DNA of 64,000 nucleotides from Liolophura sinensis. Its lineage: Eukaryota > Mollusca > Polyplacophora > Chitonida > Chitonidae. Numbering within the stretch: position 1 is the stretch's first letter; each line of letters opens with the position of its first letter. The notes beneath the pieces are model-generated. The model was not told the DNA's origin. It made no database searches and worked only from the letters and a program-made list of their open reading frames with translations. Position numbers and translations under genes: made by a program. Location of the stretch: the NCBI RefSeq assembly GCF_032854445.1, contig NC_088306.1, positions 2,041,873 through 2,105,872 on the forward strand. The letters are read 5' to 3'. Of this stretch, positions 25,294 to 64,000 are shown one piece after another.

Positions 25294-25324
<31 letters not shown>

Positions 25325-28300
25325 TCCCCCAAAGCATCATTACGAATGAATGATTACAGTGTAACAGCACGTCAGCAATGTATCATACATATTTACAGAT
25401 ACTTATGATAAATTTTGCTTTGTTTTTGTTTTTTAGACAGATGTGATGGTATACGTGAACAGGTTGAATTCCCTGGAGACCGTCGTCCCATTTGAATACA
25501 GCAGGTATCTGCACAGGGAAAAACTTATCGTGCTTAAAATCATCATATATATTTATTTATTCGATTCGTGTTTACGCCACACTCAAAAATATTCCTCACA
25601 TATGATGGCAACCATCAATATAGTGGGAGGAAACCAGGCACCACCACATCATACAAAAAAGGAAAACTCTAAGTAGTTTTAACTGTAAGATAAGAACAAA
25701 AGTTTGAAGGATGTTTTTAGTTTATGCTTGACTGCACCCTAAATCAGAACATTTGTCAGTACTTCGTGTACTTGAGGGAGTGATAAGCTGTTCTGTCGAT
25801 TTACATTCCTAAAACCGCCCACGCTCTTATACATGCACTTTTTAGTTACCCTGTTTCTTCTAAAATTATGTCACACTTGGTCTGCTCATTTGAGCCAATA
25901 TATATAATTCTAATAGGAATATTGACATCCTTTTTTCTCACATGGTTAGACCATCTTATGAACAATGTACTCGTATCTTAACTTTTCCAAAATGCTGGTA
26001 AAGAAATGTAATATGTCCCAAGTTTAAGAAAAGTCAGGGAAACAAAAATTGAAGAGAAACGGCAACACCAGTCCATTGAACCAAGTACAGTATTTAGGTA
26101 ATGAAGAGAAATAAGATTAGCTTGTTCATTATGCACATATGCTAGTGGTTACAGTATACACAATTTACAGTTGAGCTCTAATCTTGCAGCAAGCGCAGTG
26201 GGCATATTCATGCAAACTTGCCACACTGCAGTGGTGAAATTCCTTTTACGGTTGCCAAGGATAAATATAAAGAAGTCATCGTGATGTCATTGGTTTTGAA
26301 AATATTTTGAAATATCAAGAGACAGTCCTGAATTTTCTGTAAGCTAATCACGAGGTTGTTTGATAACAGTTGTATGAGTAATGTGTGCATGTACTTGTAC
26401 TGGTTTGCATGCATCTGCCAGGCTAATATAGTTTTGTATCCAAAAAGTGAAACATGCATGAATTGTATTAGAGTTGCTCTTTCATGTGCGAAAAGATAGG
26501 TGAATTAGGGTAAAGAACTTTAACAAGTGGCCTGTGTTGAGGCACAGGAGGCGTGTCCTTTATCTCCATATTTGTGGGGACCTGGTGACAACAAGCAATC
26601 AGCCACTGTCTAATGTTCATTGCAGATGACTTCAATGTAGAATACAGTCTTTATGTCTATTTAATAAACTTTGCATCACACCTTGAAAGGCTGGCCAGTG
26701 GCTTGCCAAAAGTCAGTGGTTTACCCAGGGGCTAGGGCATCCCAGTATGTTTCACCCATAAACCGAATGTCATTGTAAGAGATGGACAAAGAAATAAGCA
26801 AGTAAATAAACAAATATGTGAAATGGTTTTCTTGCTTACGATGGATTGTCATTTATACTTGACCAAGGCTGTAAATAATTTTTGAGTTGGTGCTGGACAT
26901 ACTGGCAAGTCTTTCAGCTATTCACTTTTTCACTGTGGACAGCTTTGGCACAGTTACACAGTTCTGTAGTTTAGTACACTCACCGTTTTAAAAGTAAATA
27001 AATATGTATGTGACTAACATGATAAATGCTGCACTCACAGGTTTGACTTCTGCCCTGAGGATGATGAGGAGCATAGCCCTGTGGAGAACCTGGGACAGGT
27101 CGTGTTTGGGGAGAGGATCCGCCCCTCCCGGTACAAGGTGAGATCATAGTTATTGTACCTGCCTCCTAACACCCACTAAACTTCATCTGCCCATCATTGT
27201 GTGACTTAGCTTTACTACAGCGTAGGGCATTTATGGCGACTAACTTTGTCTAAATACATTTCTTAACCTCTGCAACCTTTCAGTGACCTAATTATTGACA
27301 AGAAGTGAAAGTCTTGCTTAAAAAAAAAATGCTAACATAGAGACATTTGACGTCATATTTGCAGATATTGCATGGACATGACCAGACTTATGCCACCTCT
27401 CTCGTTTAAAGAGTGCAAAATTTACAACCTGTCCTGAGCATAGATTTGTTTTGTCTTAAACAGTATGCCTTCAGACAGGCCCAAACCTTAAGCGCCATAT
27501 GGGACACAGCCCCCTAGCTGTAAATACCTAAATTTGAGACTAGCTTAATCTGTTGAATTTTTGCCTTAAAATACATGTATTTCATAAATTTCTGAGAACC
27601 CTGAGCTTAAATGAACCTTTCCACCTGTTACTCGGAAAAATGACCTGTTGTAGACAGGCAGTGGCTAGTTCGTTTCAGCACCAATGCGGTCGCTGTGAGT
27701 TCAGCTCGTGCTAGCTTCCTGTCCTGCTGTATGTGGGAAGGTCTGCCAGCAACCTGCATATGGTCTTGGGTTTTCCCTGGGCTCTGGCCAGTTTCCTCCC
27801 GCCATAATGCTGGCCGCCGCGGTACAAGTGAAATATTCTGGAGTACGGGGTAAAACACCAATCAAATAAATAAATTAATTTCACAGTTGAACTGTATAAT
27901 TTGTAGTTCTGTTTTTATCAAGCTTGTTGCTGTATGTTTTTGTGTTTGTCTTTATTGTCCTCAGTTTTCCTTCGATAAAAATGTGACATGCAAGTCCGCA
28001 TGTACGAAGTCGTACAAGGATGATAAAGAGTCTATAGAGAAACTAAATTTCCTCCGCAAAGGCATTCGTTTGAATTATCAGCATCACTGGTGAGTTTGAT
28101 CCCTTAACATAAAAATGCGGACATATTTGTACCAGCTTGCTAGTTGGGGATTATCAACGTGATGAAATGCAGACATATTTGTGCCAGCTTGCTAGTTGGG
28201 GATTATCAACGTGATGAAATGCAGACATATTTGTGCCAGCTTGCTAGTTGGGGATTATCAACGTGATGAAATGCAGACATATTTGTGCCAGCTTGCTAGT

Positions 28301-31300
28301 TGGGGATTATCAACGTGATGAAATGCAGACATATTTGTGCCAGCTTGCTAGTTGGGGATTATCAACGTGATGAAATGCAGACATATTTGTGCCAGCTTGC
28401 TAGTTGGGGATTATTAACGTGGTAATTCACAAACTGTGTATATGCTGAGAGGCTTGAAAGAAAAGACAACAATTAACATGTTACTGTGATTCTTCAACCT
28501 TTTCTCCTTTTTACAAAGTGTGTATTCATGCATATTCTGAAGGCATTATTGCGTGTATGCTGATACAATTATACTTTTTATGAAGCCCTGAAATTGGCCA
28601 GTATAACCAATGTAGTTTTGTCTCCCAAATCTGATTATGAATGGGCATAATGTGTGCTGAGAGGTGCTCTTTCATATCCGAGAAGGTTAAAGCATTAGGA
28701 TAGATTTAGCATTTCGGAGACTGATCGGTCAAAAAAAAAATAATGATGCAAATATCAGGTGAAAAGGCTTGAAAAGCTTATATTTTTTCGATTTGTTAGA
28801 AGAAAAGTTTTCCAGCTGTGTGTGGGAAAGTCTGCCAGCAATCTGCAGGTGGTCGTGGTTTTCTCCCCGTTTCCTCCCACCATAATGCTGATCATAAGTG
28901 GAATGTTCTTGAGTATTATTGTGCTCAGACAAAATATTCCAAGAGGTGGTCCCAAGTGCCCACCATACATAAATATTCCAAGAGGTGGTCCCAAGTGCCC
29001 ACCATACAAAAACTTACTTTCAAATGTCTTTTTCTTATTAAAGACTATATAACTAACTTTTTAACCTAATCCATCTGAACTTAATGTAAATTTTTAACTT
29101 TTCTCCAGGCTACACTTTTTAAGGTGATTGCATTCTGAGCAGTAGGACACACAAAGTGCAGGTTTAAGTTTGGCCTTGGACAAACAGCCGTCTTTGTTCA
29201 TGTGGTCGTGGTGACAATAAAGCTCAGTGCACACGGACAACATGTGTTGTGGAAAACGAGATTTCTTGATCCAGACAAAAAAAAAAAAGCTTGAAATTTA
29301 CTTATATTCGAGAAACCACAAGAAGATTTCCTGAATCTGGAACATTTCATCCGATGATTGAGCTTGTTTAATTTTTGGCAACAAAAAAATCCAGAAACAA
29401 ATAAGGCAGCCACAAGATTTCACTTATCTGTGGGCAATCGGGATCTTGTGAGATCATTGTTGTCCTACTTCATCTACCATTCGTCTATGGAATGTAGCAT
29501 GTGGCCTTCCTTCGTTGCTGGTATCTTCAAACATGGACAACAAACGTTGCTGGTGTGCGGGTAACAGATATCCCAAATCAGTGATACAGGGATCTGAAAC
29601 ATTTCGACAACAAATGTTGTCTGTGTGCACTAGGCTTAGATATACTTGATGTTACCGTTTGCTCTATGTCACATTCAGTGACGACTGGTTGTCTTCTGCC
29701 ACTACGCTGAGCTTACATGTACATTTATCACGCATTTGTCACGCGTGGGAAAGTAAGCCAGTACCTTGCCAGGAGTTGGTAGTTTACCTCAGGCACTCTG
29801 GTTTTCTGCAAGCCATATCACTGACCAAACCGTATAAATGAAAATGTTTGAATGGGATGTTAAGCAGTGATCAAGTAAAGAAATACAAGTTTTGAGACGT
29901 TCTAAAAAATCGCTTGCTTCTGCCCCCCTTTATAGGATCATAGACAACATGCCGGTGACATGGTGCTACCACGTGGAGGGGTCCACAGAGAAATACTGCT
30001 CTACAGGTTTCCCCATCGGTTGCTATGTGGACAATAAAGGGGCACCCTAGAGACGCCTGCGTCATCAGTGTGAGTTCAATACCACTATATTCCTTAGGAT
30101 TTTCATACATGAAACGGCAACTTTCAGTAAGATAGACATTTATGTATTTTTGTCATTTAAGATTGGATAAAAAAATTCATTGGTTAAGATGACCAAAATG
30201 TAGGGCTTTCATCACACAAAATAATGAATGAATGAATGCTTTGGGTTTAAAATCGTACTTATCAGTTTTTCAGTCATATGACAACTGGGAGTTTTTTTAC
30301 TTTTACCATTATGATTTTTCAGTGTATACCAGGTTGGATACAAGCTCCCGTTGTGTCCTTCAGAAAAACTCTTCCAAAAAAATCGAGCCAATAATTTTGA
30401 CGTAAAAAAAAAAAAGTTGAGTGAAGTTGTGCATTTCGATAAAGCATTTTGATGTTTTCTGTGCTTTCAAAAGACTAACTGTTAAAGAATCACCTGAACT
30501 ATAATGTTTACTCTAAATAATATCCGATATAATTTTTTTATTCAGTGTGTTATTAATTTTTCTTAAAAAAAAAGCTAAAAAAAAAAACAGCATCTCCTCT
30601 CCTGTCAAACATGGGAAGGCCTTCCAGCAACCTGCAGATTGTCGTGAATTTTCCCCGGGCTCTGCCCAGTTTTCTCCCACCATGATGATGGACGCTGTCG
30701 TATAAGTGAAATATTCTTAAATCAAATAAATAGATCGAACTCTGGACAACCCGAAACCCTACTCAGTAAGATGGGGCGACTGAGTTCCCCTATATTTCCA
30801 TAGCTCATCACTATGGCATACATGAAAATACAATCTCATTCAGGTGGAAAACATGAAAACACTATTAAACCTGCAAGCAAGTAAACTTCATACAAACTTT
30901 CTTGGGGCCTTTATCGCTCATTTGGTTAGCACACTAGCGGAGCATAATAACATTGGAGCCTCTCACCAATGTGGTCGCTGTGAGTTCAAGTCCAGATCAT
31001 GCTGGCTTCCTCTCCTGCTGTAAGTGGGAAGGTCTGTCAGCAGCCTGCAGATGGTCGTGGATTTCCCCCGGGCTCTGTCCGGTTTCCTCCCACCATAAAG
31101 GCGGCCGCCATTGTATAAGTGAAATATTCTTAAGCACGGGGTAAAATACCAATCAGATAAATAAATAAATACAAACTTTCTTTATACAAACTTAAGATCA
31201 TTTCCTCTGTTTTGACTGCAGCCTGAATACAGTGCCAAGGATACGTACTACATCTTCAACCATGTGGATATCGTCATCCAGTACAACGAGGGCAAAGGAG

Positions 31301-34300
31301 AGGACTGGTCCAGCACCTTGATATCTGGTGGTCACCTTATCTCAGCACGCCTTCACCCCAGGAGGTGAGACCAGTCCATACCAGTCCAGTTCAGTCCATT
31401 TCACGAAGAACATGTAATGTTATTTATTTATGTATTTGATTTGTGTTTTACGCCATGCTCAAGAATATTTCACTAATAACATTATGGTTGGAGGAAACCA
31501 GGTCTGCCAGGTTGCTGGCAGACCTTCCCACTTACAGCCAGAAAGGAAGCCAGCATGAGCTGGACTTGAACTCACAACGACCCCATTGATGAGAGGATCC
31601 TGGGTCATTACTCTGCGCTAGTGCGCTAAACAACTAAGCCATTGGGCCCCCCCCCCCACCCCGACTTGTAACGTTACGTTCACTTAACTTTCATGGCAAC
31701 CAGTACTGTAGGTATTACGTCATTGTAGATAGTTGAATGATCCTCAATATGCCCTTTGTGAAACAGGCCCAGGCCTCATGTAAGTAATCAGAGAGACATT
31801 TACTTTCAGGCCCGGAAAAAACGCCACATCATTGAAATGAATAAGCGCTGTATTTCATACGAAGTTTTGCCTTTTTAGAGTCACAATACGCCTAATTCTT
31901 ATTGATTCTTTGACCTTATTGTCCCGAATAATTTTTTGGGGGGTGAAGTTTAATTTGATTAATCTCCTATCAGAGAGTCTTAAGTGTCGAGCTCAAAAGT
32001 GTCGTTTTAAGGCCTTTGTGTGCTTCTGAGATTGGATTGTTACACACCAGACTTCAGGTGAAATGCAGTAAACAACAGGTAGACAAGTTGGTCAGTTTGA
32101 TACTCACTCCAAAGGTAGCTGGTTAAGGCCAAGTTCCCCCACGCATAAAGCTGACTGTCGTGGCAGGAGTGAAGACTTCAGCAATAAAAACACCAGTCAT
32201 GGAAATAAATACTCCCCACACTGTAAATCTTCAACCTTTTCAACCACAAAGGCACTTTTTTTCTGTGTAATTTGTGCATGCAATTATTATGAAAATGATG
32301 CCAAAATTTGTGTCTGGGCAAATTATTTCTCTACTTTTCTCTCAAATCTCTCAAAATGTTGCCAGATATTGGTTGCAGAGGCGGTAGAAAATGTCGAATA
32401 ATTCAGGTAGTTCTGTTTTAAAGAAGAGTTTACATTGAGATTTTCATTCCCTGATTAATCAGTGTTGTTAGTGTGTTTCACCATCTGCACGGCATTTATC
32501 AAGCGACATGTTTTTGTTTGAATTGGATCAAATTGTGCACCTTATAGGTTAAAGGAGAAGAAAACTTAAAAAAATGAAAAGAGGACATTTTTTTCTATCT
32601 GGTGGTACCTGCTGCATAATTTGGCGGTTTTTCTTCACCATACACGTAAAGCCTGAAAAACGGCAAAGCTGGCATAAATCGCTGAGTCCATTGGATCCTC
32701 CATCCTGTAATTACACCCTGTAATTTATGCTAGGGGTGTGTTGCCTCTCAGCCAATGAGAGTCATTAAAACTGCCGGCTTGGTCGTGTAAACTCAGAACC
32801 TACGTCCAACATTCTGGTTTCCCGATCGTCAAGCGGAAAACGAACTGTACTGTTTGCTGCCTTCTGGGAAGAAGAATCCTACCGGAAATGTATGAACTGC
32901 ACTTCGGCGGTTTCCGACGGCAATTCTCCTAACACAAAAGACTTCAGGACTAGTTCTTAGGCAAAATGCAGTCGCCCACAGTGGATGTTGGCGCTAACTT
33001 TATTTATAATTTATCAGCTTGAGGTACATGTTAGATTTTCTTATGACATGCACCTGTGAGGAAATGCATACTCTTTTCAATGGTATTTGTCTGATATTTA
33101 AATTTTCTTCTCCTTTAACTTTCAATGAGTTTTATGTGAAGTGAGATTAATTTCTCACCAGAAAAACTTTAGTGGTGGTATCAAAAGTAATATTTTAAGG
33201 ACTCTGTGCCCCTGAAAGTTCATTTTTAAATATCAGACTTTTGGTGAAGTTTACAGTAAATAATTGTTTATCAAAGTATCAACATACAGAGTCTGCTTTA
33301 GGGGTCGGGTCTCACCTGAAACCTTAAAATAGGAAGTTGTAGCTTCCTTGCTTGGCGTTCAGCATTAAGGGGATAATGCAACAGTTGATCCATATCAGTA
33401 TAATGGCTCAGGCGAATCGGCTTACTGACCTTCGGTAAGTCGTCTCAGTGAAGCAGCACTAGATAAAAGAGCGATGGAAAGACGTCTTGCAACAAGGAGG
33501 CACATTACATGCACACTTAGAACTCCTTCATCATCATAGGACTTGTTATTGTTCAGTATGATATTAAACACCAAGCACTCTTTTACTCACTCACTCAACA
33601 TCATGGGGTTGAAGTATAAATATTTGGGAAGTACCAGTGATGGGAAGGCGGCAGATTTTTGAAATCTCAAGAGGCGGCACAAGTATGAAGCCAGAACTGC
33701 AGCCATTGTTACGTCAAAAATGGTTTGTAGCACAACGTCTACAATGGTTCAGTACAACATGTCAGTTTTTATTGTAAGGTCATTCACATTGTAATGTGAC
33801 GTGGTCATGATGAGCTGGGAAAGGAATATTTGATATCGGTGGGCAACTCACAAAACTCCTTCCCACCTAGCTGTCACAATGCAGTCCAAGCTTATGAAGT
33901 CTTTTGTTCTTTCCTTTACTGCGTCATAATTTTTGGGGTATGTATGCTCATAAAACACCATAGATGTGTAGCTCATACACTGCAATGTCACAGAAGAAAC
34001 CGATGTGTTCTATCGATAATTGTCTGTTTCTTTAGTTCGACCTTGAGTCTTCCATTCAGTGGAGTTGCAGGGTGTTGGACAAGTCTCCATTGATCCTCAT
34101 CGATTGTTGTTGTTGTTTTCAGCTTCTCAAAGGTAACAGAGAATTCTCCAAACTGTGGGGGAAGTGGTCCATTGTCGCTGGGCGCTAAACAGAAGAAGCT
34201 GGACATCACATATTCCTACTCAGTCAGCTTTGTGGTGGGTAACTTTGTCCAACTACAAGAAATTCAGCTCAGTAGATGCCTAGCCTGAAAAAATGTACTG

Positions 34301-37300
34301 ATGCATGTATATGTGGGAAGGGGTTTCAGCAACCTGCAGATGGTCCTGGTCGTGACTCCGCACGTTTCCCTCCTTAACTAATCAAATAAATAATAAACAT
34401 TTATTCTATTAACAATGTTTCTGGATACATCTGCTATCTCTAGTTCTTGTCGAGTGTTTGTACACGGTGATGGAGAGAAAGGTTATCCAGTTTAGGCAGG
34501 AAACTATGGCATGGCTTGGTTTTCGTCGAATTTGCAAGACTCTAACTGGATTCAGGCAAATATTGGCTACAGGAATCCGTGCAAATTCAGTTTTGAATTC
34601 CCACTGTAACGTTTCGTGGAAGTCCAGATCCAAATAATCAGCTGAGTTGAATTACCATTAATTTGTGTTTGTTACTCATACTTGTTTCAACACACAGAAT
34701 ATGCACTGTTTTTCTGAAATAAAAAAAATGTTTCTGGCAGTATATTTGACATTTCGCTGGGTGCAAATCACAGTATGCTTGGCAATTCATGGCCTCAAAT
34801 CACAGTCTATTAAGTTATTTGATTAAATTTTGCTGAAATCCAGTTGGATGAGATGATGAGGTGATATTTCAGGATTACTAACAGTTATCGGGCTCCCGTC
34901 AGAAAGCAAGCCCTGAATAGCTGCTCCACCACAGATCCTTTGGTAGACTTGACAGAAAGAAAGTAAAGACAATTGTTTTCAGAAAGATACGTCTTGTACC
35001 ACTTTTCAGGGTATATGTGAAGCTAGTTATACCTGACAGCTTCCATATACATGTACTGCTAATGGGAGGTATTACACTGTGACAAAAACCGATGCAAAAG
35101 GTTCCTGCTGTGAAGTGGATGACCTGCTAGCTGACGCTCTTACTCAATGCTGTTGTTGTTGTTGTAGGTGAACAATAATGTAAAGTGGTCCTCTCGCTGG
35201 GATTACATCCTGGAGTCCATGCAGCACACAAACATCCAGTGGTTCAGGTGAGATACGTGGAGGAGATCATGTGTAGGAATAAAGTCTTGTCCTAGTAATC
35301 AGTGGTATTAAAATGACGTTAAATTTTCCCCTTTCCCAAAACTTATATTTGGAGGCAAGGCAATGTGTTAAAATATTCCTTTTCATGTTAAAACTTACAT
35401 TTATAATAATACCTTTATTTAAGGTATTAACCTTTAAGGGAGCTCCTTCAATTTATAACGAAACTGTTCTTCCTCAGGCCTACAGAGAGAAAAACAGTGA
35501 ATAGGAAACATGTACTCCAGAGTGCTGTCAAAAATACATCAATGTATAAAATAAGCAAACATCATGTAGTTTGTAAGGTGAACTTAAATACATTCATACG
35601 TGAACAGAAAAAAAGAACAACAAAGTAACGAGTACTGCTATGCTAGCAGCTGTCCCAACCAGCTGGAGACACAGGGTAGTGGGAGACATTTTGTCTGATC
35701 CTGGCTGATCCCTCCACCATGTTGATCCTGACTGATCCATCCACCATGCTGATCCTGACTGATCCATCCACCATGTTGATCCTGACTGATCCATCCACCA
35801 TGTTGACCCTGACTGATCCATCCACCATGTTGACCCTGACTGATCCATCCACCATGTTGACCCACTCAAGATCGTTTGATGAAGTTTGAAATATTCTTGA
35901 GCACGGCATAAAACACCAATCAAATAAATAAATGTACAACAATGGTTGTCAATCTCCTAAACTGAGAGATACATATAGTTGTACATTGCATCATAACGTT
36001 TCCGTCACAACATGAACTCAGTAGTCATTGTGCCTGTGTTGTATGTTTCAGTATCATGAACTCAGTAGTCATTGTGCCTGCGTCATATGTTTCAGTATCA
36101 TGAACTCAGTAGTCATTGTGCCTGCGTCGTATGTTTCAGTATCATGAACTCAGTAGTCATTGTGCCTGTGTTGTATGTTTCAGTATCATGAACTCAGTAG
36201 TCATTGTGCCTGCGTCATATGTTTCAGTATCATGAACTCAGTAGTCATTATGCCTGCGTCATATGTTTCAGTATCATGAACTCAGTAGTCATTGTGCCTG
36301 CGTCGTATGTTTTAGTATCATGAACTCAGTAGTCATTGTGCCTGCATTGTATGTTTCATCATCATGAACTCAGTAGTCATTGTGCCTGTGTCATATGTTT
36401 CAGTATCATGAACCCGGTGGTCATTGTGCCTGTGTCGTATTTCAGTATCATGAACTCAGTAGTCATTGTGCCTGTGTCACATGTTTCAGTATCATGAACT
36501 CGGTGGTCATTGTGTCTGCGTTGTATGTTTCAGTATCATGAACTCAGTAGTCATTGTGTCTGCATTGTATGTTTCATCATCATGAACTCAGTAGTCATTG
36601 TGCCTGTGTCGTATGTTTCAGTATCATGAACCCGGTGGTCATTGTGCCTGTGTTGTATTTCAGTATCATGAACTCAGTAGTCATTGTGCCTGTGTCGTAT
36701 GTTTCAGTATCATGAACTCGGTGGTCATTGTGCCTGCGTCATATGTTTCAGTATTATGAACTCAGTAGTCATTGTGCCTGCGTCGTATGTTTCAGTATCA
36801 TGAACTCAGTAGTCATTGTGCCTGTGTCGTATTTCAGTATCATGAACTCAGTAGTCATTGTGCCTGCGTCGTATGTTTCAGTATCATGAACTCGGTGGTC
36901 ATTGTGCCTGCGTCATATGTTTCAGTATCATGAACTCAGTAGTCATTGTGTCTGCGTCGTATGTTTCAGTATCATGAACCCGGTGGTCATTGTGCCTGCG
37001 TCGTATGTTTCAGTATCATGAACTCAGTAGTCATTGTGCCTGCGTCACATGTTTCAGTATCATGAACTCAGTAGTCATTGTGCCTGTGTTGTATGTTTCA
37101 GTATCATGAACTCAGTAGACATTGTGCCTGTGTCGTATGTTTTCAGTATCATGAACTCAGTAGTTATTGCGCCTGTGTTGTATGTTTCAGTATCATGAAC
37201 TCAGTAGTCATTGTGCCTGTGTTGTATGTTTCAGCATCATGAACTTATTGGTCACTGTGCCTGTGTTGTATGTTTCAGCATCATGAACTCAGTAGTCATT

Positions 37301-40300
37301 GTGCTCTTCTTGTCTGGCATGGTGGCCATGATCATGCTGAGGACTCTCCACAAGGACCTGGCTCGATATAATCAGATGGACAATGCTGTGAGTATCCAGT
37401 GTCTTCTTAAGAATTGTCTCACTACATGTGTGTTTTTCATCTGAAGAAAACAACTGATCAGATAAGCCAATACTAATTGTTCACAGGAGCCCTCTGTGGC
37501 CAAGGTGGTTAGCCCACTAGTGCATTGCAGTAAACCAGGAGTCGCTCACCAATGTGGTCATGGGGAGTTCATGTCCAGTTCAGGATCACTTCCTCTCTAG
37601 CTGTACATGGGAAGATCTGTCATCAATCTGTGGATGGTTGTGTCTTCCCCACCCCCCACCCCCAGCCCAGGGAAAGCACAAAAAATAAATAAATAAATTC
37701 TTATCAAGAACAATAATAATATTTAATTGATTGTTGCATAACGCTGTCATGAAACATTCTGTCACTACATTTGTCAGTTTCATGGGTAATATGAATATAA
37801 GAATATGTTTATGATTCATGATGTAGTGAACAGCATTTCACTTATAAGACAACGATTTAAACAGCAAGTATCTGAATCACAGGTTAGAACGCACATCAGT
37901 GACAATTCACCAGTTCTCACTTGAACCAATTGACTGCAACCCAGTTACAGTTCACATGTAACATATTAAAGGAAACTCAAAAAGGTGTCTACCTCCAGTC
38001 AACATTTGGTTTATTTATTTATTTCATGCGTGTTTTACACTGTGCTCAAGAATACTTGACTTATGCGATGGCAGCCAGCATTATGGAGGGAGGGTCTTAA
38101 TATAGTGTTCAATGCATCTTTGAGTGATAATACTGACCAGTGGTTGATTTGTGACTAACATTTTCCCCACCCCCCAGGAGGACGCTCAGGAAGAGTTTGG
38201 ATGGAAGCTGGTGCACGGAGATGTCTTCCGTCCTCCACGAAAGGGCATGATGCTGGCAGTGCTCAACGGGAACGGCATTCAGATCTTCTTCATGACCCTC
38301 ATCACACTGGGTGAGTAGTGTGTCCCCCGTCTTTGTGTCAGGGATGAGAATTTATAGCTAATTAGCTAATTTCAAGGGAAATCAAGATCTTCAAAGTATC
38401 TAATTTTTGGCCAAAATGGAATTTGATGGAAAAGAATCTCTTCGCTGTCGTAATTGTTGCTCATACATTGCTGATGTGGCATTAAATGGTAATCATTCGT
38501 TCCGAGGCTAATTCTCGCAGGATCAGGATGGTTAATGCTCTGGTTTGCTCAGCTACCAGGCTCTTGTGATCGCATGTTCAAATCCAGCTCATGCTCTCTC
38601 AGCTATTGCTTTGAGGAAGTATATATATTTGGATGCAGGTGCCTTAACATCTGGATTCAAAATTTGAAATGTGATTTAAACAGTGGAAATATCAAACCAT
38701 TAAAAAGTTGCCTGACACCTAACAGGTGGAATTTTTTTTTTTTTTTTTCAATAGCATTCAAATTTCAGTTTAAAAGACAGAAAAAAAAAATTAAAATAAA
38801 CTTTTAGGTGTAGCACTTCGGCAGTATCCTTTGATGCCTCAAGTTGAAAGTCCACTGAAATTTAATTTTAAGTGGTAATAATACTTAGTTTAAACACTTG
38901 TATGTGTATTTAGTGATATATTGTTTGTGTTGTTTCAGTATTTGCTTGCCTGGGATTTCTGTCCCCAGCCAACAGGGGAGCATTAATGACTTGCGCTTTG
39001 GTAAGTTCAGTATTCAAACTATCTAAACCTTGTGGAGATGAAATGCAACTGCTGTCTGTTCAGGGAGCATTCAGAATAATTTGTAACCAATGGTGGTAGA
39101 CTGAATACCTCTGTGTTGAGGGAATGTAACCTAATGAAATTTTTGCCATCAAAAGTTGTGTCCCTTAGTCTACATACATATGATGTTAGTGAATGATGTT
39201 CACATGGATGAGCGCATGAAGATGAAATTAAAACTGATCAGCTGACAGTGATTGTGGAAGATCTGAGGTTTTGTACCTGGTGCATGATTGCACATGATTG
39301 CTATGTGGAGGTATAGTCTGATTTCAGTCGCATTCATTCAGTTAAGACACGGAGTGACTTATTTCACCCAGATTTGTTTCAGTTTATGAAGCCCTCAGGT
39401 GGTGGAATTGTGAAAGTTATTGGCACTATTTGTTTAATTATTTGTACATGACAGTGTACTAAACTGAGATAAACCATGTGTGGCATCATGAGATTGTCAT
39501 CATGGTATGACTGAAATATTGTTGAAAAGAATACAATCAAGCAAAAAGAGGCAATGTCGCAATATTACCATTTTGTGCCTTCTTCTTCTGCTGAAAGCTA
39601 CAGCTAAAATGAGGATGGAACAGTTATAGGAAAACAGAGATATTTTTATTAAGAACTTTTGAGATCTAAGTTGTAAATGCTGCCTTGTTTTCATGGTGAG
39701 TGTGTGTGGACTGTTTACAGGTGCTGTATGTGTGCCTGGGAACACCAGCTGGTTATGTTTCGGCCAGGATTTACAAAAGTAAGCATTGGAGGTGATTTCA
39801 GCTGTAAGACATCACCAAACCAGTGTCACCCATCACTGACATACAGCCTCAAATGACGTCGTATTTTCAAATGCGAAAGACATTATTCCAGCATAACTGC
39901 CTTGCTCGATGTCATATTTGCCCGATTCATTGTCACATGAGAAATATTATCATGCCGCATCAGGAAAGCTTAAGTAGAGGATACACAGTATTGTTCATCG
40001 TAAATCATTTTCAACCGCTGTTAGTTCTCTTCCATAGGGTGTCCTTCATATCATTTTAATATTTTCGCCTCCACTACTTTTGATTACACTAGGGATTAAT
40101 CTTGGGACTGAAGTAGCACTGTAAGGCTGCCCTAATACTTCACAGTGAGATTTGTGTAAGTTAGACACGACAGGTAGACTTTCTTGGTTCCTTGTTAACA
40201 ATGGCCTATTTTCAAGTAAATCCCATGAGTGCCCCTTCATTGAGTGTAATTTTTACCAAACATTATTTGGGTTACATAATAAACATGTTAGTTACATGTT

Positions 40301-43300
40301 TTATTGCTTAAGATGGGTACAGTTTCAATCACATGGAAATGTATGTTTTTATACTATATTTGTGCAGCATTTGGTGGTGAGAAATGGAAGTCCAATGTGC
40401 TTCTGACAGCTTTCTTATGCCCAGGGTAAGTAATGTGTATTTATGAAGGTTGTGCTGAATCCATATACTATGAACTCTGTGACTGAGGTGTTTAGTGGGC
40501 CAGAGTGGTGCAGTGACCCAAGAGCCTCTCAGCAATGAGGTGGCTGTGAGTTCAAGTCCAACTCATGCTGTCTTCCGCTCCAGCCATACGTAGGAAGGTT
40601 TGGCAGCAGCCTGCAGAGGATCGTGGGTTTATCCCAGGGGCTTTCGGATTTCCTCCCACCATAGTGCTGGCCGCCATCGAATAAGTGAAATATTCTTGAG
40701 TACCCTTTAATACACCAATCAAATCAGTATAATTTGAATGTTTTGGCTGGATAAATGGAATTGTATTAAACGAGCACTATTTTGGACAAAAGAATTTAAT
40801 ATGGGGCTAGGTTATGTGTAATAAATTGCTTTTTAACACAGAGTGGGATTATGCTATGTGTATAACTGAGTAAATGTTGATGTTAACTTCAAGGGCCTCT
40901 ACATATACCTACAATGGTTGCAACATACATGTGTACAGGCACCTTTTTTTCAATTTTAATCTTTGGCTTGACATTGTGGGCAGCCTATTGACGTGTAACC
41001 TTATCTGTTTGAGGTCTTGTGGGATTCAGCCTGACCAGATTCATTTTCATTGTGCGCATCTGTGATGTCTGTAACCAGTACGATGCCAGCAGGTATAGCT
41101 CACCTGTTTCCTACTTGATCTTTCAGGGTGATCTTTGGCATCTTTTTCTTGCTAAACCTGATCCTGTGGATCAAGCAAAGCAGCGCGGCGATCCCGTTCA
41201 CCACTCTGCTGGCTCTCCTAGCCCTCTGGTTTGGGATCTCAGTGCCCCTCACATTTGTGGGAGCCTACTTCGGATTTAAGAAACGGGTAAGTCACTGAAG
41301 CATGTAGGTCTTGGGGTAAGTCACTGAAACATGTAGGTTTTGGAGTAAGTCACTGAAACATGTAGGGCTTAGTGTAAGTCACTGAAACATGGATTCCTTG
41401 GGGTTAGTCACTGAAACATGTAGGCCTTGGGGTAAGTCACTGAAACATGTAGGCCTTGGGGTTAGTCACTGAAACATGTAGGTCTTGGGGTAAGTCACTG
41501 GAACATGTAGGTCTTGTGGTAACTTACTGAAACATGTAGCTCTTGGGGTAAGTCACTGAAACATGTAGCTCTTGGGGTAAGTCACTGAAACGTGTAGGTC
41601 TTGGGGTAAGTCACTGAAGCATGTAGTCTTGGGTAAGACACTGAAACATGTAGGTCTTGGGTCTAATCACTGAAGCATGTAGGTCTTGGGGTAAGTCACT
41701 GAAACATGTAGGCCTTGGATAAGTCACTGAAACATGTATGTCTTGGGGTAAGTCACTGAAACATGTAGGTCTTGGGGTAAGTCAGTGAAGCATGTAGGTC
41801 TTGGGGTAAGTCACTGAAACATGTAGGTTTTGGAGTAAGTCACTGAAACATGTAGGCTTGGTGTAAGTCACTGAAGCATGTAGGTCTTGGGTTAAGTCAC
41901 TGAAACATCTAGGTCTTGGGGTTTAATCACTGAAATATGTAGCTCTTGGGGTAAGTTACTGGAACATGTAGGTCTTGGGGTAAGTCACTGAAATGTGTAG
42001 GTCTTGGGGTAAGTTACTGAAAACATGTAGGTCTTGGGGTTAGTCACTGAAACATGTAGGTCTTGGGGTAAGTCACTGAAACATGTAGGTCTTGGGGTAA
42101 GTCACTGAAACATGTAGGCTTGGGTAAGTCACTGAAACATGTAGGCCTTGGGTAAGTCACTGAAACATGTAGGCCTTGGGGTAAGTCACTGAAACATGTA
42201 GGTCTTGGGGTAAGTCACTGAAACATGTAGGTCTTGGGGTAAGTCACTGAAACATGTACATGTAGGTCTTGGGTTAAGTCACTGAAACATGTAGGTCTTG
42301 GGGTAAGTCACTGAAGCATGTAGGTCTTGGGGTAAGACACTGAAACATGTAGGTCTTGGGTCTAATCACTGAAGCATGTAGGTCTTGGGGTAAGTCACTG
42401 AAACATGTAGGTCTTGGGGTAAGTCAGTGAAGCATGTAGGCCTTGGGGTAAGTCACTGAAACATGTATGCCTTGGGGTAAGTCACTGAAACATGTAGGTC
42501 TTGGGGTAAGTCACTGAAACATGTAGGTCTTGGGGTAAGTCACTGAAACATGAAGGCCTTGGGGTAAATCACTGACATTCGTAAGCTTTGGGCTGAATCC
42601 ACTATGTGATTTTTGACATTGCGCTCAATGACTAAGTTTGTTACCTTAGAGTCTTGTGGTTTCTTTGGAACCCAAGTTGGTGTACCCCCTTTCAAACACA
42701 TAAGTTTCAGCATCAGAAGTAATATTTTATGACATTAACTAGTAAAAATGCATTTTTTGGTGTGAAAACTTATTAAGCATAAGTCAGAAGGTAAAACCTG
42801 GATATAATTTGCAGTCTGTTGCCCCAGGAGTTAAAATTTATGTATTTGTGTTGAGATACATGTAAACACTTGGAAACCTTGCCAATTTAACTCGTACTGC
42901 CTGTAAAGTGGCAGTAACAAGTGGTATTTTCTAGTTTTAGTGACATGGTTTATTATTTAGTGGCAGTAACGAGTGCTCACTCTTTCCAGGCCATTGAGCA
43001 CCCAGTCCGCACCAACCAGATCCCGCGCCAGATCCCAGATCAGTCGATCTACACCAAGGCCCTGCCCGGAATCGTCATGGGTGGAGTCCTGCCCTTTGGG
43101 TGTATCTTCATTCAGCTGTTCTTCATCTTGAATAGCATCTGGTAAGCTGTTTTCAGCTATTTGAAGGTGTTTGAAGGTGTTCACCTGTCCATGATGAAGT
43201 CATGATGGCAATGAAGTCATGATGGTAATGAAGTATAGGATTTAGTGGTATGGCATTGACTTCTTTGATCTAGCACGGACCATTTCCGAGTCACAGGAAC

Positions 43301-45988
43301 TGACTGATAGCATAAGGAAAGGTGTAAGCAACTGCTAAAAAACTTTGCTGACAATATTCATGTACATATACATGTACCAGATGTATTCCCATGTTTACAG
43401 GTCTAATCAGATGTATTCCCATGTTTACAGGTCTAATCAGATGTATTCCCATGTTTACAGGTCTAATCAGATGTATTCCCATGTTTACAGGTCTAATCAG
43501 ATGTATTCCCATGTTTACAGGTCTAAGCAGATGTATTCCCATGTTTACAGGTCTAAGCAGATGTATTCCCATGTTTACAGGTCTAAGCAGATGTATTCCA
43601 TGATAACAGGTGTAACCAGATGTATCCCATACTAACAGGTGTAACCAGATGTATTCCATGATAACAGGTCCAACCAGATGTATTCCCATGTTTACAGGTC
43701 TAATCAGATGTATTCCCATGTTTACAGGTCTAATCAGATGTATTCCCATGTTTACAGGTCTAATCAGATGTATTCCCATGTTTACAGGTCTAAGCAGATG
43801 TATTCCCATGTTTACAGGTCAAAGCAGATGTATTCCATGATAACAGGTGTAACCAGATGTATCCCATACTAACAGGTGTAACCAGATGTATTCCATGATA
43901 ACAGGTCCAACCAGATGTATTCCCATGTTTACAGGTCTAAGCAGATGTATCCCATGCTAACAGGTGTAACCAGATGTATTCCATACTAACAGGTGTAACC
44001 AGATGTATTCCATGATAACAGGTCCAACCAGATGTATTCCCATGTTTACAGGTCTAACCAGATGTATTCCCATGTTTACAGGTCTAACCAGATGTATTCC
44101 CATGTTTACAGGTCTAACCAGATGTATTCCCATGTTTACAGGTCTAACCAGATGTATTACATGTTTGGATTCCTGTTTCTGGTATTCCTCATCCTTGTGG
44201 TCACATGCTCAGAGGCCACCATCCTACTCTGCTATTTCCACCTCTGTGCAGAGGTAAGGTTTATGATGTCTCTATGCACATGTACTACTCTGGCTGGTTC
44301 TTGAAAACCTTGCAAGCTCTGTCTTGGTTTAGACCATCTTGAAACAATTATTTTTTGGATTTAACTCATCCTTATAAAAAATATGGTAGACCTATCGAGA
44401 ATAAATGTTAGGGTCCTATGTAAAACTTTCAGGCTGGAAAAAAGGAAGAAGGGCTTAGTAGTACAGCTCAGCTTATTTTAAAAATTGAATGATTCTTGAC
44501 AGTAATGGAAAACATAGAGTCTTTGAAAAACATTTTTTTTGCAGGTGATTATAGTCCTCAGGCATTCATTTTTGTCATTTTTTCTGAGTAACTGACAAGA
44601 TGCAGTGGGTTTGCTCCTTACATAAACATGGCTGTGGTTGACAAAAGCTTTTTTTAAGATTTATCAAACCGACATTGAACACTAATTTAATGATTAACTA
44701 AAAAGATCTATAATTAGCAGGTGAGGTAGCTCCCTGGATCACTCTTGGCCTATTTCCTCCATTCGGTTTTTCAAGGATCATTTTTGGCCTGTTTTCTCCA
44801 TCCAGTTGTTTCCTAAACCATGTCTGGCCTGTTTCGTCCATCCAGGGGTTTCCTTGATCACTCTAGGCCTGTTCCTCCATGTAGTAGTTTCCTGGATCAC
44901 TCTTGACCCGTTTCCTATTTCAGTAGTTTCTAGGATCAGTTTTAACTGGTTTCCTCCTCCCACTAGATTTCTGGATCACTCTTGACCTGTTTCCTCCATC
45001 CAGTGGTTTCCTGAACCATGCTTTGCCTGTTTCTTCCATCTAGTAGTTTCCTGGATCACTCTTGACCTGTTTTCTATTTCAGTAGTTTCTAGGATCATTT
45101 TTGGCCCGTTTCCTCCTCCCTGTAGATTTCTGGATCACTCTTGGGCCTCTTTCCTCCATCCAGTAGTTTACTGAACCATTCTTGGCCTCTTTCCTCCATC
45201 CTTAGTTTCCTGGATCAGTCTAGGACTCTTTCCTCCACCCAGTGGTATCTTGGATCATTTTTGGCCTGTTTCCTTCATCCAGCATTTTCCTGAACCATGC
45301 TTGGCCTGTTTCCACCATCCAGTGGTTTCCAGTGTCACTCTTGACCTGTTTCCTCCAGTCATTATTGTAACTGATAGGTACACTTGTACTGTATTCCTGT
45401 TTTGTTTCGTTGCCATAGGACTACCATTGGTGGTGGAGATCGTACCTGACCAGTGCCTTTACAGGCGTCTATTTCTTCATCTACTGTATCCACTACTACA
45501 TGACCAAGCTGGAAATGCAGGGCACAGCCAGTGCCTTCCTCTACTTTGGTTACACCCTCATTATTGTGTTCCTTTTCTCACTGCTGACAGGTAAGTTAAC
45601 CTGGAATTTTGTCATATGGTGGTCAGGGGACGCCAGTTTTATTTTATTTTGTATGGGTGGGATGATGCTGAAAAGTGCACTCAATGCAATTAAAATAAAG
45701 CTGAAAATCACCTTTCACATTTATGATGGTTTTATTCTGAATTGTGTGCTGTAATGAAGCTTGTTATAATGAAGTAAAGGTGTATTAAGTTTATGACCCC
45801 TTGCACTTAATTAAGGATCTGACAGGTATATACATGTATACTGCATACATGGGCTTATTCCAGATGTTTTAGGGTTCTAATTAATAAAGTAAAGAGACCT
45901 TTTCTCATGTTTATTTGCAGGTTCCATCGGCTTCTGTGCCTGTTTCTGGTTTGTCTCTAAGATCTACAGTAGCGTGAAAGTGGACTAG
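22464..45988 (+). CDS. TM9SF2: TM9SF2 (transmembrane 9 superfamily member 2, nonaspanin), 18 coding exons
   Basis: Exons: 22464-22595, 25437-25504, 27041-27137, 27965-28089, 29936-30069, 31222-31364, 34123-34234, 35168-35247, 37279-37387, 38178-38310, 38939-39000, 39721-39778, 40368-40425, 41127-41286, 42990-43141, 44142-44253, 45419-45590, 45921-45988. All junctions are GT-AG and all phases match. The product is about 657 residues once one surplus G in exon 5 is discounted; human TM9SF2, from memory, is 663. Residues 1-20 look like a signal peptide, followed at once by the family motif FYLPGLAP. A cysteine-bearing luminal domain ([29 protein letters not shown]) runs to about residue 296. Nine membrane segments start with exon 9 ([18 protein letters not shown]) and include [47 protein letters not shown] and [13 protein letters not shown]. 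The C-terminus KVD is the KXD/E COPI-binding, Golgi-retention signal known for this family. The family acts in Golgi/endosome membrane trafficking and glycosylation. TM9SF2 is preferred over TM9SF4 from residue-level match recalled from memory, not an alignment run here. Confidence 0.97.
23509..23815 (-). mobile_element. SINE family A in TM9SF2 intron 1
   Basis: It carries the full family order in minus orientation with internal deletions. The flanks GTGTACATGA (23499-23508) and GTGTATATGA (23816-23825) differ at one base and are read as its target-site duplication. The rest of intron 1 (22596-25436) shows no gene, only a (TAA)n microsatellite near 25294-25325. Confidence 0.88.
25294..25325. 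repeat. (TAA)n microsatellite
   Basis: About ten uninterrupted AAT/ATA units in TM9SF2 intron 1, about 110 bp before exon 2. Confidence 0.95.
25551..25645 (-). mobile_element. SINE family B 3' fragment in intron 2
   Basis: It retains the tail (TATTTATTTATTCGATTCGTG) and the block with ATATTCCTCACATATGATGG through GTGGGAGGAAACCAGGC, then stops. It lies 46 bp downstream of the exon 2 donor. The remaining 1.4 kb of intron 2 shows nothing recognisable. Confidence 0.75.
27668..27881 (+). mobile_element. SINE family B, 5'-truncated, in intron 3
   Basis: It runs from CACCAATGCGGTCGCTGTGA through the ATAATGCTGGCCGCCG block to the AATCAAATAAATAAATT tail, ending about 80 bp before exon 4. The tRNA head is degraded. 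Confidence 0.85.
28109..28425. repeat. 52-bp minisatellite in TM9SF2 intron 4
   Basis: Six copies with a 52-bp period; a shared segment is GCCAGCTTGCTAGTTGGGGA. The first copy, with two or three differences, begins about 20 bp after the exon 4 donor. The following copies are almost identical to one another, showing recent homogenisation or expansion. Unlike the arrays of introns 8, 14 and 15, the unit does not include the splice site. Confidence 0.96.
28810..29010 (+). mobile_element. SINE family B fragment followed by a short tandem duplication
   Basis: 28810-28922 holds the middle and part of the end of family B (TGTGGGAAAGTCTGCCAGCA, CTCCCACCATAATGCTGATC, TAAGTGGAATGTTCTTGAG). Next to it, AAATATTCCAAGAGGTGGTC and its continuation occur twice in tandem (28935-29008). 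Confidence 0.7.
29225..29632. mobile_element. MITE with about 27-bp imperfect terminal inverted repeats, intron 4
   Basis: The left end CAGTGCACACGGACAACATG and the right end, reverse-complemented (TAGTGCACACAGACAACATT), match except at a few positions. There is no coding capacity. A target duplication is not clear (possibly a 4-bp near-match around AGCT/GGCT), so the parent superfamily is left open. Confidence 0.7.
30039..30042 (+). other. TM9SF2: One surplus G in TM9SF2 exon 5 (apparent frameshift)
   Basis: Exon 5 reads cleanly up to the GGGG run, then meets TAG at 30048-30050. Removing one G restores [11 protein letters not shown], which matches the family's KGH..DACVIS segment, and brings exon 5 (134 bp) into the phase needed by exons 4 and 6. 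All other exons are intact. A homopolymer error in the assembly is the simplest explanation; a real null allele or a pseudogene is less likely. Confidence 0.85.
30224..30300 (-). mobile_element. SINE family A 3' fragment in intron 5
   Basis: Only the terminal module remains (AATGCTTTGGGTTTAAAATC, TCAGTTTTTCAGTCATATGAC). Confidence 0.7.
30597..30735 (+). mobile_element. SINE family B, 5'-truncated, in intron 5
   Basis: It runs from the CATGGGAAGGCCTTCCAGCA block through the TTTCTCCCACCATGATGATG block to ATCAAATAAATAGATC. It has the same orientation as the next family B copy at 30908. Confidence 0.8.
30908..31171 (+). mobile_element. SINE family B, full-length, 50 bp upstream of exon 6
   Basis: It starts with a tRNA-like head (GCTCATTTGGTTAGCACACT) and a B box of GAGTTCAAGTCC type. 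The body and the AATCAGATAAATAAATAC tail are complete. It forms an inverted pair with the copy at 31420 across exon 6. Confidence 0.92.
31420..31655 (-). mobile_element. SINE family B, full-length, 55 bp downstream of exon 6
   Basis: In minus orientation, the tail TTATTTATGTATTTGATTTG leads, and the tRNA-like head closes at GCGCTAGTGCGCTAAACAAC...CCATTGGGCC. It is the inverted partner of the 30908-31171 copy. Confidence 0.92.
32553..33114. mobile_element. 562-bp MITE flanked by TTAA, intron 6
   Basis: The ends are AGGAGAAGAAAACTTAAA and, reverse-complemented on the right, AGGAGAAGAAAATTTAAA, each bounded by TTAA (32549-32552 and 33115-33118). A TTAA target with AG-starting ends points to the Kolobok or piggyBac type; it is non-autonomous and has no transposase. 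The interior holds a CCAAT-box-like CAGCCAATGAGAG. Confidence 0.88.
33296..33600 (+). mobile_element. SINE family A, head-less copy, intron 6
   Basis: It begins just after the tRNA-like head (GGTCTCACCTGAAACCTTAA) and continues through TTCCTTGCTTGGCGTTCAGC, CAGTGAAGCAGCACTAGATA and CATTACATGCACAC to the CACTCACTCA end. Confidence 0.88.
34305..34400 (+). mobile_element. SINE family B fragment, intron 7
   Basis: It retains TGTGGGAAGGGGTTTCAGCA, AACCTGCAGATGGTCCTGG and the ATCAAATAAATAATAAAC tail. The head and the ATAATGCTGG block are lost. Confidence 0.65.
35700..35865. repeat. 27-bp minisatellite, six copies, intron 8
   Basis: The unit contains TGATCCATCCACCATGTTGA with a 27-bp period. The unit length keeps three open frames on the minus strand with repeated MDQSGSTWW, which is a by-product and not a gene. 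A SINE B tail follows at 35876-35935. Confidence 0.93.
35876..35935 (+). mobile_element. SINE family B tail, intron 8
   Basis: GAAATATTCTTGAGCACGGC followed by AATCAAATAAATAAATG: the 3' module only. Confidence 0.75.
36011..37278 (+). repeat. 44-bp minisatellite made of copies of the exon 9 acceptor junction
   Basis: Twenty-nine copies before the real exon 9, mostly exactly 44 bp apart (ATG of each copy at 36012, 36056, 36100 ... 37195, 37239; real one at 37283). Each unit joins an intron end (TGTATGTTTCAG-type) to the first 26-27 bases of exon 9 (ATCATGAACTCAGTAGTCAT and following bases). Twenty-six copies keep a polypyrimidine-AG acceptor; the first copy and those at 36364 and 36582 lack it. 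Most carry T rather than C at the first exon base, a silent difference. Splicing to a decoy would read into the next unit and hit TGA in frame after about 17 codons. Confidence 0.97.
37486..37700 (+). mobile_element. SINE family B, intron 9
   Basis: The tRNA-like head (GCCCTCTGTGGCCAAGGTGG) and body are present up to TGGATGGTTGTGTC. The usual ATAATGCTGG block is replaced by a C-rich tract, then AAATAAATAAATAAATTC. Confidence 0.8.
38012..38098 (-). mobile_element. SINE family B 3' fragment, intron 9
   Basis: TTTATTTATTTATTTCATGC followed by the CTCAAGAATACTTGACTTAT and CAGCCAGCATTATGGAGG blocks; truncated after that, about 80 bp before exon 10. Confidence 0.8.
40497..40732 (+). mobile_element. 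SINE family B, nearly full-length, intron 13
   Basis: It has a degraded head (GGGCCAGAGTGGTGCAGTGA), the B-box-like GAGTTCAAGTCC, the CATACGTAGGAAGG block, ATAGTGCTGGCCGCC and a short tail AATCAAATCAG. Confidence 0.85.
41287..42590 (+). repeat. 29-bp minisatellite made of copies of the exon 14 donor site
   Basis: It starts at the true donor itself: GGGTAAGTCACTGAA repeats with a 29-bp period about 45 times, interleaved with ACATGTAGGTCTTGG. I count 32 exact GTAAGT hexamers including the real one, and 13 changed ones (GTTAGT, GTAAGA, GTCTAA and similar). The unit's last bases GGG mimic the end of exon 14 (CGG), so each copy recreates G|GTAAGT. Use of any decoy would extend exon 14 into GTA-AGT-CAC-TGA, a stop nine bases into the intron. 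Intron 14 runs on to 42989 without other features. Confidence 0.97.
43381..44141 (+). repeat. 29/30-bp minisatellite made of copies of the exon 16 acceptor junction
   Basis: Twenty-five ACAG acceptors precede the real one at 44141, spaced 30 or 29 bp. Each unit joins an intron end (CATGTTTACAG, CATGATAACAG or CATACTAACAG) to the first 17 bases of exon 16 (GTCTAACCAGATGTATT or near variants). Every unit thus contains a branch-point-like CTAAC (in the exon-derived half), an acceptor about 24 bases later, and AG|GT. The last four decoys (44021, 44051, 44081, 44111) are in frame with exon 16 and would add 40, 30, 20 or 10 residues. Confidence 0.97.
44720..45365 (+). repeat. Degenerate minisatellite of about 39 bp in intron 16
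   Basis: About 15-17 diverged copies of a unit with TTTCCTGGATCACTCTTG and CCTGTTTCCTCCATCCAGT. Each copy presents a pyrimidine tract followed by CAG or TAG, resembling an acceptor. The real exon 17 acceptor (GTTTCGTTGCCATAG) is not itself part of the unit. Divergence is higher than in the other intron arrays, so it is probably older. Confidence 0.9.
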
Positions 45989-51490: not shown

Positions 51491-51494
51491 CGTT

Positions 51495-52165
51495 CACGAG
51501 TGGACAGGTACACCTGCCGATCAGGCAGGTTGGGCGGGTGGCTGTCCAGCCGTGGCCCCATTCGTCCATGCAGTGCTTTACACAGTCATTATTCGTGTGA
51601 CAGGCTAGCGCGGCCCCTATCAATAAGAAAGCGTGACACAGTGTTTCACATATTTATTGCCCGTGTAACAGGTTATCCGTGTGGCAGGTCAGTGCGACCC
51701 CTATCAACAGGGAAGCGCGATACAGTGCTTCACACGGTCGTTATTCGTGTGGCAGGCCAGTACGACCCTATGAACAAGGAAGCGTGATAGTGCTTCACAC
51801 AATCGTTATTCGTGTGGCAGACCAAGAACGATCCCAGTCGACACGAAAGTGTGATACAATGCTTTACACCACCAATCAACGATAAAGCGTGATGCAGTGC
51901 TTCACACAGTCGTTATTCGCGTGGCAGCCCAGTACGATCCCAATCGACACGAAAGTGTGATACAGTGCTTTACACCACCAATCAACGATAAAGCGTGATG
52001 CAGTGCTTCACACAGTCGTTATTCGCGTGGCAGCCCAGCGCGATCCCAATCGACACGAAAGTGTGATACAGTGCTTTACACCACCAATCAACGATAAAGC
52101 GTGATGCAGTGCTTCACAGAGTCGTTATTCGTGTGGCAGCCCAGTACGACCCTATCAACAAAGTT
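51495..52165. repeat. Minisatellite with a higher-order unit
   Basis: A basic unit of roughly 50-60 bp contains CAGTGCTTCACACAGTCGTT and ATTCGTGTGGCAGGCCAGT. From about 51830 to 52110 two unlike half-units (one with CAGTGCTTCACACAG, the other with CAGTGCTTTACACCACC) alternate as a larger period of a little over 100 bp, repeated about three times almost without change. Confidence 0.92.
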
Positions 52166-63925: not shown

Positions 63926-64000
63926 GCTGGCAGATGTTCACGCGTAATCGGTGAAATACGGCCACTTTACCTCAGTCAGGGTTTTATGGGGTTTCTTTCT

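Follow-up and report, generated by a model that had tools for sequence, protein, structure and literature searches.

Gene content of the locus

The genome assembly of the chiton Liolophura sinensis comprises 609,464,459 bases in 632 contigs, and the stretch of DNA analysed here (64,000 nucleotides, hereafter the window) spans positions 2041873-2105872 of contig C12, which is 31,077,156 bases long. As stated in passages of PMC11068029, the assembly (GCA_032854445.1) was built from PacBio HiFi reads (14x, mean read length 8,347 bp) and Omni-C data and was first published as that of L. japonica; the name was corrected to L. sinensis in PMC12441733.

The central part of the window is occupied by TM9SF2, for which splice-aware alignment gave a model of 18 coding exons with GT-AG borders at all 17 introns. 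Exons 6-18 encode 472 residues, which match the NCBI TM9SF2-like protein of L. sinensis with 100% identity over 100% of their length. Exon 5 carries a one-base frameshift (window 30020-30060), beyond which the original frame soon meets a stop codon; it may be either a sequencing error or a genuine defect of this allele, and the protein is labelled LOW QUALITY by NCBI. Apart from this gene, two small open frames (window 55236-55481, forward strand, and 51489-51653, reverse strand) have similar cysteine-rich ends (CSRNSDCDKFCQNMYG..CLLGKCECILVHG and CHTNNDCVKHCMDEWG..CLIGRCTCPLVNG). These frames on opposite strands perhaps encode secreted peptides; a Pfam search of four open frames, including these two, returned no family above the cut-off.

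Features of TM9SF2 (window coordinates)
22464..45988, forward strand: coding exons 1-18, start to stop codon (splice-aware alignment)
28113..28421, forward strand: control array, 52 bp x5.9, intron 4, 23 nt past the donor; exon-side match not above shuffles
35696..35860, forward strand: control array, 27 bp x6.1, intron 8; exon-side match not above shuffles
36011..37304, forward strand: array 1, intron 8, 44 bp x29.5 (TRF); unit of 26 nt of exon 9 and 18 nt of intron 8 ending in TTTCAG
37279..37387, forward strand: exon 9, 109 nt; the exon part of array 1 has its last copy in nt 1-26; real acceptor 37278/37279
41127..41286, forward strand: exon 14, 160 nt; real donor 41286/41287 (CGG/GTAAGT) is the first array-2 copy
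41285..42575, forward strand: array 2, intron 14, 29 bp x44.5 (TRF); most units with GTAAGT
43376..44166, forward strand: array 3, intron 15, 30 bp x26.7 (TRF; 29/30-bp units); unit of 17 nt of exon 16 and the intron end ...ACAG
44142..44253, forward strand: exon 16, 112 nt; its first bases are the exon-derived portion of the array-3 unit; real acceptor 44141/44142
44726..45357, forward strand: control array, intron 16, 40 bp, degenerate; includes several pyrimidine-AG stretches and stops 61 nt short of exon 17; exon-side match not above shuffles

Tandem arrays at three splice junctions

A preliminary description of this DNA had placed minisatellites in introns 8, 14 and 15, and TRF recovers all three at those positions, with the intron numbering holding in the 18-exon model. 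Array 1 ends inside exon 9 and array 3 inside exon 16, while array 2 has its start at the exon 14 donor. Array 3 additionally shows a 237-bp higher-order repeat (TRF). The arrays account for 1,268 of the 2,031 bases of intron 8 (62%), 1,289 of the 1,703 bases of intron 14 (76%) and 766 of the 1,000 bases of intron 15 (77%).

The units had further been described as copying the splice site together with exon bases, which proved correct for two of the arrays. All 26 nucleotides of the exon 9 part recur in register in array 1 and all 17 of exon 16 in array 3, where they are followed, after a one-base difference, by CATG or CATGTTT. Exon-side local-alignment scores were 26 for array 1 (shuffled maximum 14) and 21 for array 3 (shuffled maximum 17; 200 shuffles each), and a chance match was rejected, both arrays lying above every shuffle. 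Among the 34 junctions of the gene, neither array matched any above shuffles besides its own. For array 2 the description has to be amended: only the last two bases of exon 14 (GG) recur, and the exon-side score does not exceed those of the shuffles. Array 2 thus copies the donor, without recognisable exon sequence. Altogether, eight TRF arrays from TM9SF2 introns were tested. In two of them the unit matches the exon sequence at the array's own junction, and a third begins at the junction; in the remaining six, array 2 included, the exon-side match was not above shuffles.

The units are diverse, with 23 types among 28 units in array 1 and 30 among 44 in array 2. Relative to the terminal copy, the units of array 1 diverge by 7.1% in their exon-derived and by 9.7% in their intron-derived parts. 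A genome-wide search, in which the best candidates were scored and very common words skipped, found one locus for each of the three arrays, which makes insertion from a dispersed satellite or transposon family unlikely and leaves that origin unsupported.

Decoy splice sites

Array 1 presents 26 decoy acceptors ahead of the real one (25 TTTCAG and one TTTTAG), and the AG has been lost in two further units (to TTTCAT). Array 2 contains 31 exact GTAAGT decoy donors and array 3 contains 25 ACAG decoy acceptors, so that the figure of about 82 given in the preliminary description is exact in its total (26+31+25) and in its parts. When scored with weight matrices derived from 100 real introns of the neighbourhood (matrices that include the real sites tested), 75 of the 82 decoys fall no lower than the 5th percentile of the real sites (24/26, 31/31 and 20/25 in arrays 1, 2 and 3, respectively). 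A score at least equal to that of the adjacent real site was reached by 7/26, 0/31 and 16/25 of them.

Use of a decoy would preserve the reading frame in 0/26, 0/31 and 4/25 cases, the four being the last decoys of array 3, where each unit adds 10 residues. The NCBI TM9SF2-like protein is without the 10-residue insert and corresponds, at each of the three arrays, to splicing precisely at the site next to the exon, in a model that may itself rest on protein homology. Variants in the exon-derived part of array 1 fall, in raw counts, mostly on third codon positions (40 third, 8 first, 4 second), a skew that arises because a few variants are common to many units; the distinct variants are spread evenly (4 first, 4 second, 5 third), and purifying selection on the decoy exon parts was rejected on this ground.

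Recurrence in neighbouring genes

A further 220 kb beyond the window was read, giving 284 kb in all (including 5 kb of N), 16% of which consists of minisatellites (72 arrays with a unit of at least 12 bp and at least 3 copies). Within the window, further large minisatellites lie outside TM9SF2 at 12780-13785, 60322-61159, 61432-62101 and 63485-63926. A survey of own-junction matches covered 100 introns of five genes, namely TM9SF2, ACADVL (flagged when the flanks of the arrays were scanned), a carrier resembling SLC25A30 and two ABCC genes (ABCCa and ABCCb). The last two were modelled with Branchiostoma ABCC5 as the reference, which was obtained in a protein search with the ABCC exons joined; no chiton protein was among the matches listed. 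Besides TM9SF2 and ABCC5, the gene names used here (ACADVL, SLC25A30-like carrier and, below, CCT7) are presumptive. Arrays were counted if their unit was at least 15 bp and present in at least 3 copies, and where TRF rows overlapped only the row with the best score was kept. Doubtful mini-exons (six in ABCCa, one in ABCCb) were excluded, and some exons of the carrier are short and weakly placed.

These 100 introns hold 38 arrays, and in 8 of these the match with the exon side at the array's own junction exceeds all 300 shuffles (76 tests). The eight represent seven junctions, the two arrays in ABCCa intron 25 being counted as one. Outside TM9SF2, they are the following.

C12:2153567-2157490 (window numbering continued, 111695-115618): ACADVL intron 7 donor, 150 bp x25.5, with 59 exon nt coding SKIWISNGGLAEVFTVFAQ plus the donor
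ABCCa intron 6: donor array, 74 bp x23
ABCCa intron 9: donor array, 71 bp x13.5
C12:2258914-2262779 (window numbering continued, 217042-220907): ABCCa intron 16 acceptor and exon start (TTCCTATCTGACTGTGACAG), 66 bp x58.6
ABCCa intron 25: donor array, 42 bp x4; a second array, 42 bp x3.9, about 6 kb further on, with a related unit

The decoy exon pieces of ACADVL appear as repeated tblastn matches, and in ABCCa intron 16 a SINE-like sequence followed by a few more copies stands between the main array and the exon. In ABCCb intron 5, as in TM9SF2 intron 14, an array edge lies at most 2 nt from the junction without exon sequence. Taken together, the eight matching arrays amount to 12,864 bases, a figure that takes in a few exon bases. 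Relative to totals of 121,604 intron bases and 28,398 array bases, this is 10.6% and 45%, respectively; arrays of all kinds make up 23% of intron bases in the five genes. The earlier proposal that tandem duplication at junctions lengthens introns is supported both by the share of introns 8, 14 and 15 that the arrays occupy and by their recurrence in ACADVL and ABCC.

A sample from elsewhere in the genome comprised 47 introns of four genes: TM9SF relatives on contigs C1 (C-terminal part, 6 introns), C3 (14) and C7 (17), and CCT7 on C6 (10). These introns, some of whose exon borders are approximate, hold three arrays under the same thresholds, and none of the three matches the exon side of its own junction above shuffles. 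All three lie in the C3 gene, where one TRF row lying inside a larger array was not counted separately; no array that reaches these thresholds was found in the relative on C7 or in the C-terminal part of that on C1. Junction-spanning arrays of the type seen in TM9SF2, which in amphioxus have been named mirages (see below), were looked for in the three TM9SF relatives (C1 in its C-terminal part) and none was found. Repeat units matched the exon side of their own junctions better than shuffles in 8 of 38 arrays in the neighbourhood and in 0 of 3 elsewhere. With no mirage in these 47 introns, mirages are not uniform across the genome, and array density, and mirages with it, varies between regions in this small sample.

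In the C3 relative (C3:14445001-14460000, reverse strand), a 38-bp x5 array starts 30 nt past a donor and its units faintly resemble that donor (CAGGTTTGTT compared with CAGGTATGTT); its exon-side score is no better than shuffles and it was not counted. It is possibly a decayed mirage.

Proposed origin and tolerance of the arrays

The reading that we favour, with a probability of roughly 0.85, is that arrays 1 and 3 are mirages, born in place by tandem duplication of a splice junction and tolerated since the copy bordering the exon preserves the site of splicing. In this view, a short segment spanning a functional junction would have been duplicated in tandem, giving a minisatellite in place, and slippage and unequal exchange would then have raised its copy number. 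The copy adjoining the exon (the last for an acceptor, the first for a donor) would continue as the splice site, while the other copies would become intron carrying decoys. In the modelled genes, the exon-bordering copy is predicted to be the functional one because the reading frames require it. Array 2 may have arisen by the same process, seeded at the donor and essentially inside intron 14; as it is without exon sequence, its seed may equally well have lain just within the intron.

The seed itself was probably a duplication between short direct repeats straddling the junction, the clearest case being array 3. Here, CATGTTT occurs before the acceptor in the intron and again in exon 16 (window 44160 on), one 29-nt unit apart; the exon sequence past the array-3 exon part, ACATGTTT, is a short direct repeat of the intron-side motif. 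The shorter, 29-nt units equal the spacing between these CATGTTT copies, with one base changed. This arrangement of bases fits a first duplication between direct repeats flanking the junction, and it is in array 3 alone that such a seed appears convincing. In array 1, 8 of the 18 bases past the shared 26 still agree in register, an agreement that is only suggestive as a trace of a direct-repeat seed. Later growth would have proceeded by blocks of units, as the 237-bp period and the order of units in array 3 suggest, in the manner that unequal exchange leaves. In the one haplotype analysed, such block duplications within the array point to earlier changes in its length.

Tolerance of so many decoys could be explained by exon definition, in which factors at both ends of one short exon bind together. 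Across the short exons concerned (9, 14 and 16), the nearest copy would win and the decoys would be tolerated, most decoy products being expected to be frameshifted or truncated. The remainder of each array would then be neutral ballast. Such neutrality would agree with the decay of the units, namely the two lost acceptors, the 7-10% divergence and the even spread of variants over codon positions. At the position of intron 14 (residue 490), the TM9SF relative on C7 likewise has an intron (in a comparison of residue numbers only), which speaks against gain of this intron; intron 14 looks older than its array.

Seeding at random or directed to junctions

In a minisatellite-rich stretch of chromosome, duplications would arise at many places and some would fall on junctions. 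The question of seeding was approached with a null model in which a seed as long as the unit (u) lands anywhere, with equal chance, in an intron whose length before the array was I0. Such a seed reaches 5 nt or more into both sides of a junction with a probability of about 2(u-10)/(I0+u-10). For the 38 arrays these probabilities add up to 3.58 expected against 7 junctions observed, with P(>=7) = 0.051 and P(>=8) = 0.017, values that are only descriptive because several cut-offs were tried. The same reservation applies to the subsets: without TM9SF2, which had been chosen for its arrays, 5 junctions (6/32 arrays) stand against 2.87 (descriptive P = 0.14 for 5 and 0.05 for 6), whereas among arrays of at least 10 copies 6/15 stand against 1.9 (P=0.005) or, without TM9SF2, 4/12 against 1.58 (P=0.05).

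For the seeding step, it is fairly probable that no preference is involved at all and that the C12 stretch is so rich in minisatellites that its junction arrays reflect chance together with the choice of a striking gene. The array load (72 arrays in 16% of 284 kb; 23% of intron bases in five genes) and the modest figure left once TM9SF2 is set aside (5 against 2.87) agree with this, while the long arrays and the concentration of array bases at junctions (12.9 of 28.4 kb) do not. The opposite view holds that active junctions start tandem duplications more often than other parts of introns and so channel intron growth through splice sites, for example by way of R-loops or stalled replication at transcribed exon ends. 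It draws on the overall excess and on that of the long arrays, as well as on the two further arrays in TM9SF2 intron 14 and ABCCb intron 5; it is weakened by the figures without TM9SF2, by the number of cut-offs tried, and by selection, which may mimic a seeding bias by sparing growth that is directed into the intron at junctions. We regard directed seeding as rather doubtful, and a junction bias as possible. The earlier statement that a recurring junction-seeded process acts rather than chance is accordingly upheld for the recurrence, and the excess over chance is weak (7 against 3.6, descriptive P=0.051; P=0.14 without TM9SF2). A bolder and unlikely extension would be that tandem duplications in chitons originate preferentially at splice junctions and that the resulting arrays, which account for about 10.6% of the intron sequence of the five genes, are a main route by which introns grow. 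Occasionally they would give rise to new introns or to repeat exons in frame, the latter being something that array 3 could already do.

A regulatory role, with the decoys as competitors for U1 or U2AF or with array 3 as a source of protein variants carrying 10-residue inserts, so that TM9SF2 output is tuned, appears very improbable. The strength of the decoys (75/82 not below the 5th percentile set by 100 real sites of the neighbourhood) and the frame kept open by the last four of array 3 are what such a role would need; nevertheless, the distinct exon variants of array 1 are even over codon positions, units decay to the point of losing two acceptors to TTTCAT, the NCBI protein has no insert, and arrays with a unit of at least 15 bp and at least 3 copies are absent from the C7 relative and from the C-terminal part of the C1 relative. 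That the arrays were collapsed or expanded by the assembler can hardly be credited, even with a frameshift in exon 5, a LOW QUALITY protein and a HiFi coverage of only 14x, since reads averaging 8,347 bp (both figures from passages of PMC11068029) compare with arrays of 0.8-1.3 kb, the units are diverse (23 types/28 in array 1, 30/44 in array 2) and amphioxus has the same kind of array.

Implications

Under the favoured reading of birth in place at the junction, the presence of mirages in a mollusc, at 7 junctions per 100 introns in one neighbourhood, suggests a wider, perhaps ongoing, way of lengthening introns. The arrays also serve as natural experiments on how the spliceosome chooses among dozens of near-identical sites, the expected choice being the last copy in an acceptor array and the first copy in a donor array. 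Moreover, duplication as a route of intron growth and gain can be tested with the public HiFi and RNA data of Liolophura sinensis.

Comparison with known systems

The closest counterparts are the mirages of amphioxus (Adh3, troponin C, the globins BflGb6 and BflGb9, and PGBD5), described in passages of PMC3087553 and PMC3902484 as minisatellite-like tandem duplications spanning or adjoining an exon-intron boundary. According to the same passages, they occur on the acceptor or the donor side, carry splice signals in many copies and are reported to be spliced regularly; the PGBD5 study (PMC3902484) adds further lancelet mirages and cites troponin C, and the earlier reports in these sources come from amphioxus only. 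The TM9SF2 arrays share the tandem copies at an exon-intron boundary, on either side, with signals retained. A unit with exon and intron sequence across one boundary is found in arrays 1 and 3, array 2 with its 2 nt falling outside this strict form; in all three, the array adjoins the exon with the real junction as its terminal copy, and splice signals persist in many copies (the 82 decoys). The differences lie in copy number (27-45 per TM9SF2 array and 59 in one ABCC array, against 3 and 6 in the two amphioxus BflGb6 haplotypes), in the presence of three arrays in one gene, in the near absence of exon sequence from array 2, and in the evidence, which for the chiton arrays is genomic sequence. 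The host is a mollusc instead of a cephalochordate, which concerns taxonomic range and not structure.

Internal tandem repeats in human segmental duplications, according to passages of PMC2812944, stem from minisatellite expansion (mean 30-bp units, 4 copies), which can make exons or introns longer; where it occurs at an exon-intron boundary, a novel intron may result or a cryptic splice site may become active. As portrayed there, these repeats belong to recent primate paralogues, lie half in coding sequence and have few copies; they are not arrays of the junction itself. Tandem duplication has also been linked to intron gain (PMC2891723, PMC4974935). In the cases portrayed there a new intron arises, whereas intron 14 of TM9SF2 looks older than its array. 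A human minisatellite in IFI6 (6-16), with 12-bp units that include the donor, reportedly provides multiple donors used in alternative splicing (Turri and colleagues, 1995). Those donors are said to be in use, whereas the TM9SF2 decoys are candidate sites.

The preliminary description knew of no standard account of such arrays. Among the matches listed from the open-licence PMC literature, no report of mirage-like arrays in molluscs, chitons or TM9SF2 was found, so this stands for the gene and the phylum; it does not stand for the kind of array, which is that of the amphioxus mirages. The main text of PMC11068029, on the L. sinensis assembly, has no word beginning with intron or satellite, and in the eLife chiton genome paper intron appears once, in a reference, and minisatellite and satellite are absent. 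Thus, the phylum, the three arrays in one gene and the recurrence nearby are new, while the kind itself is the known, if little-known, mirage of amphioxus.
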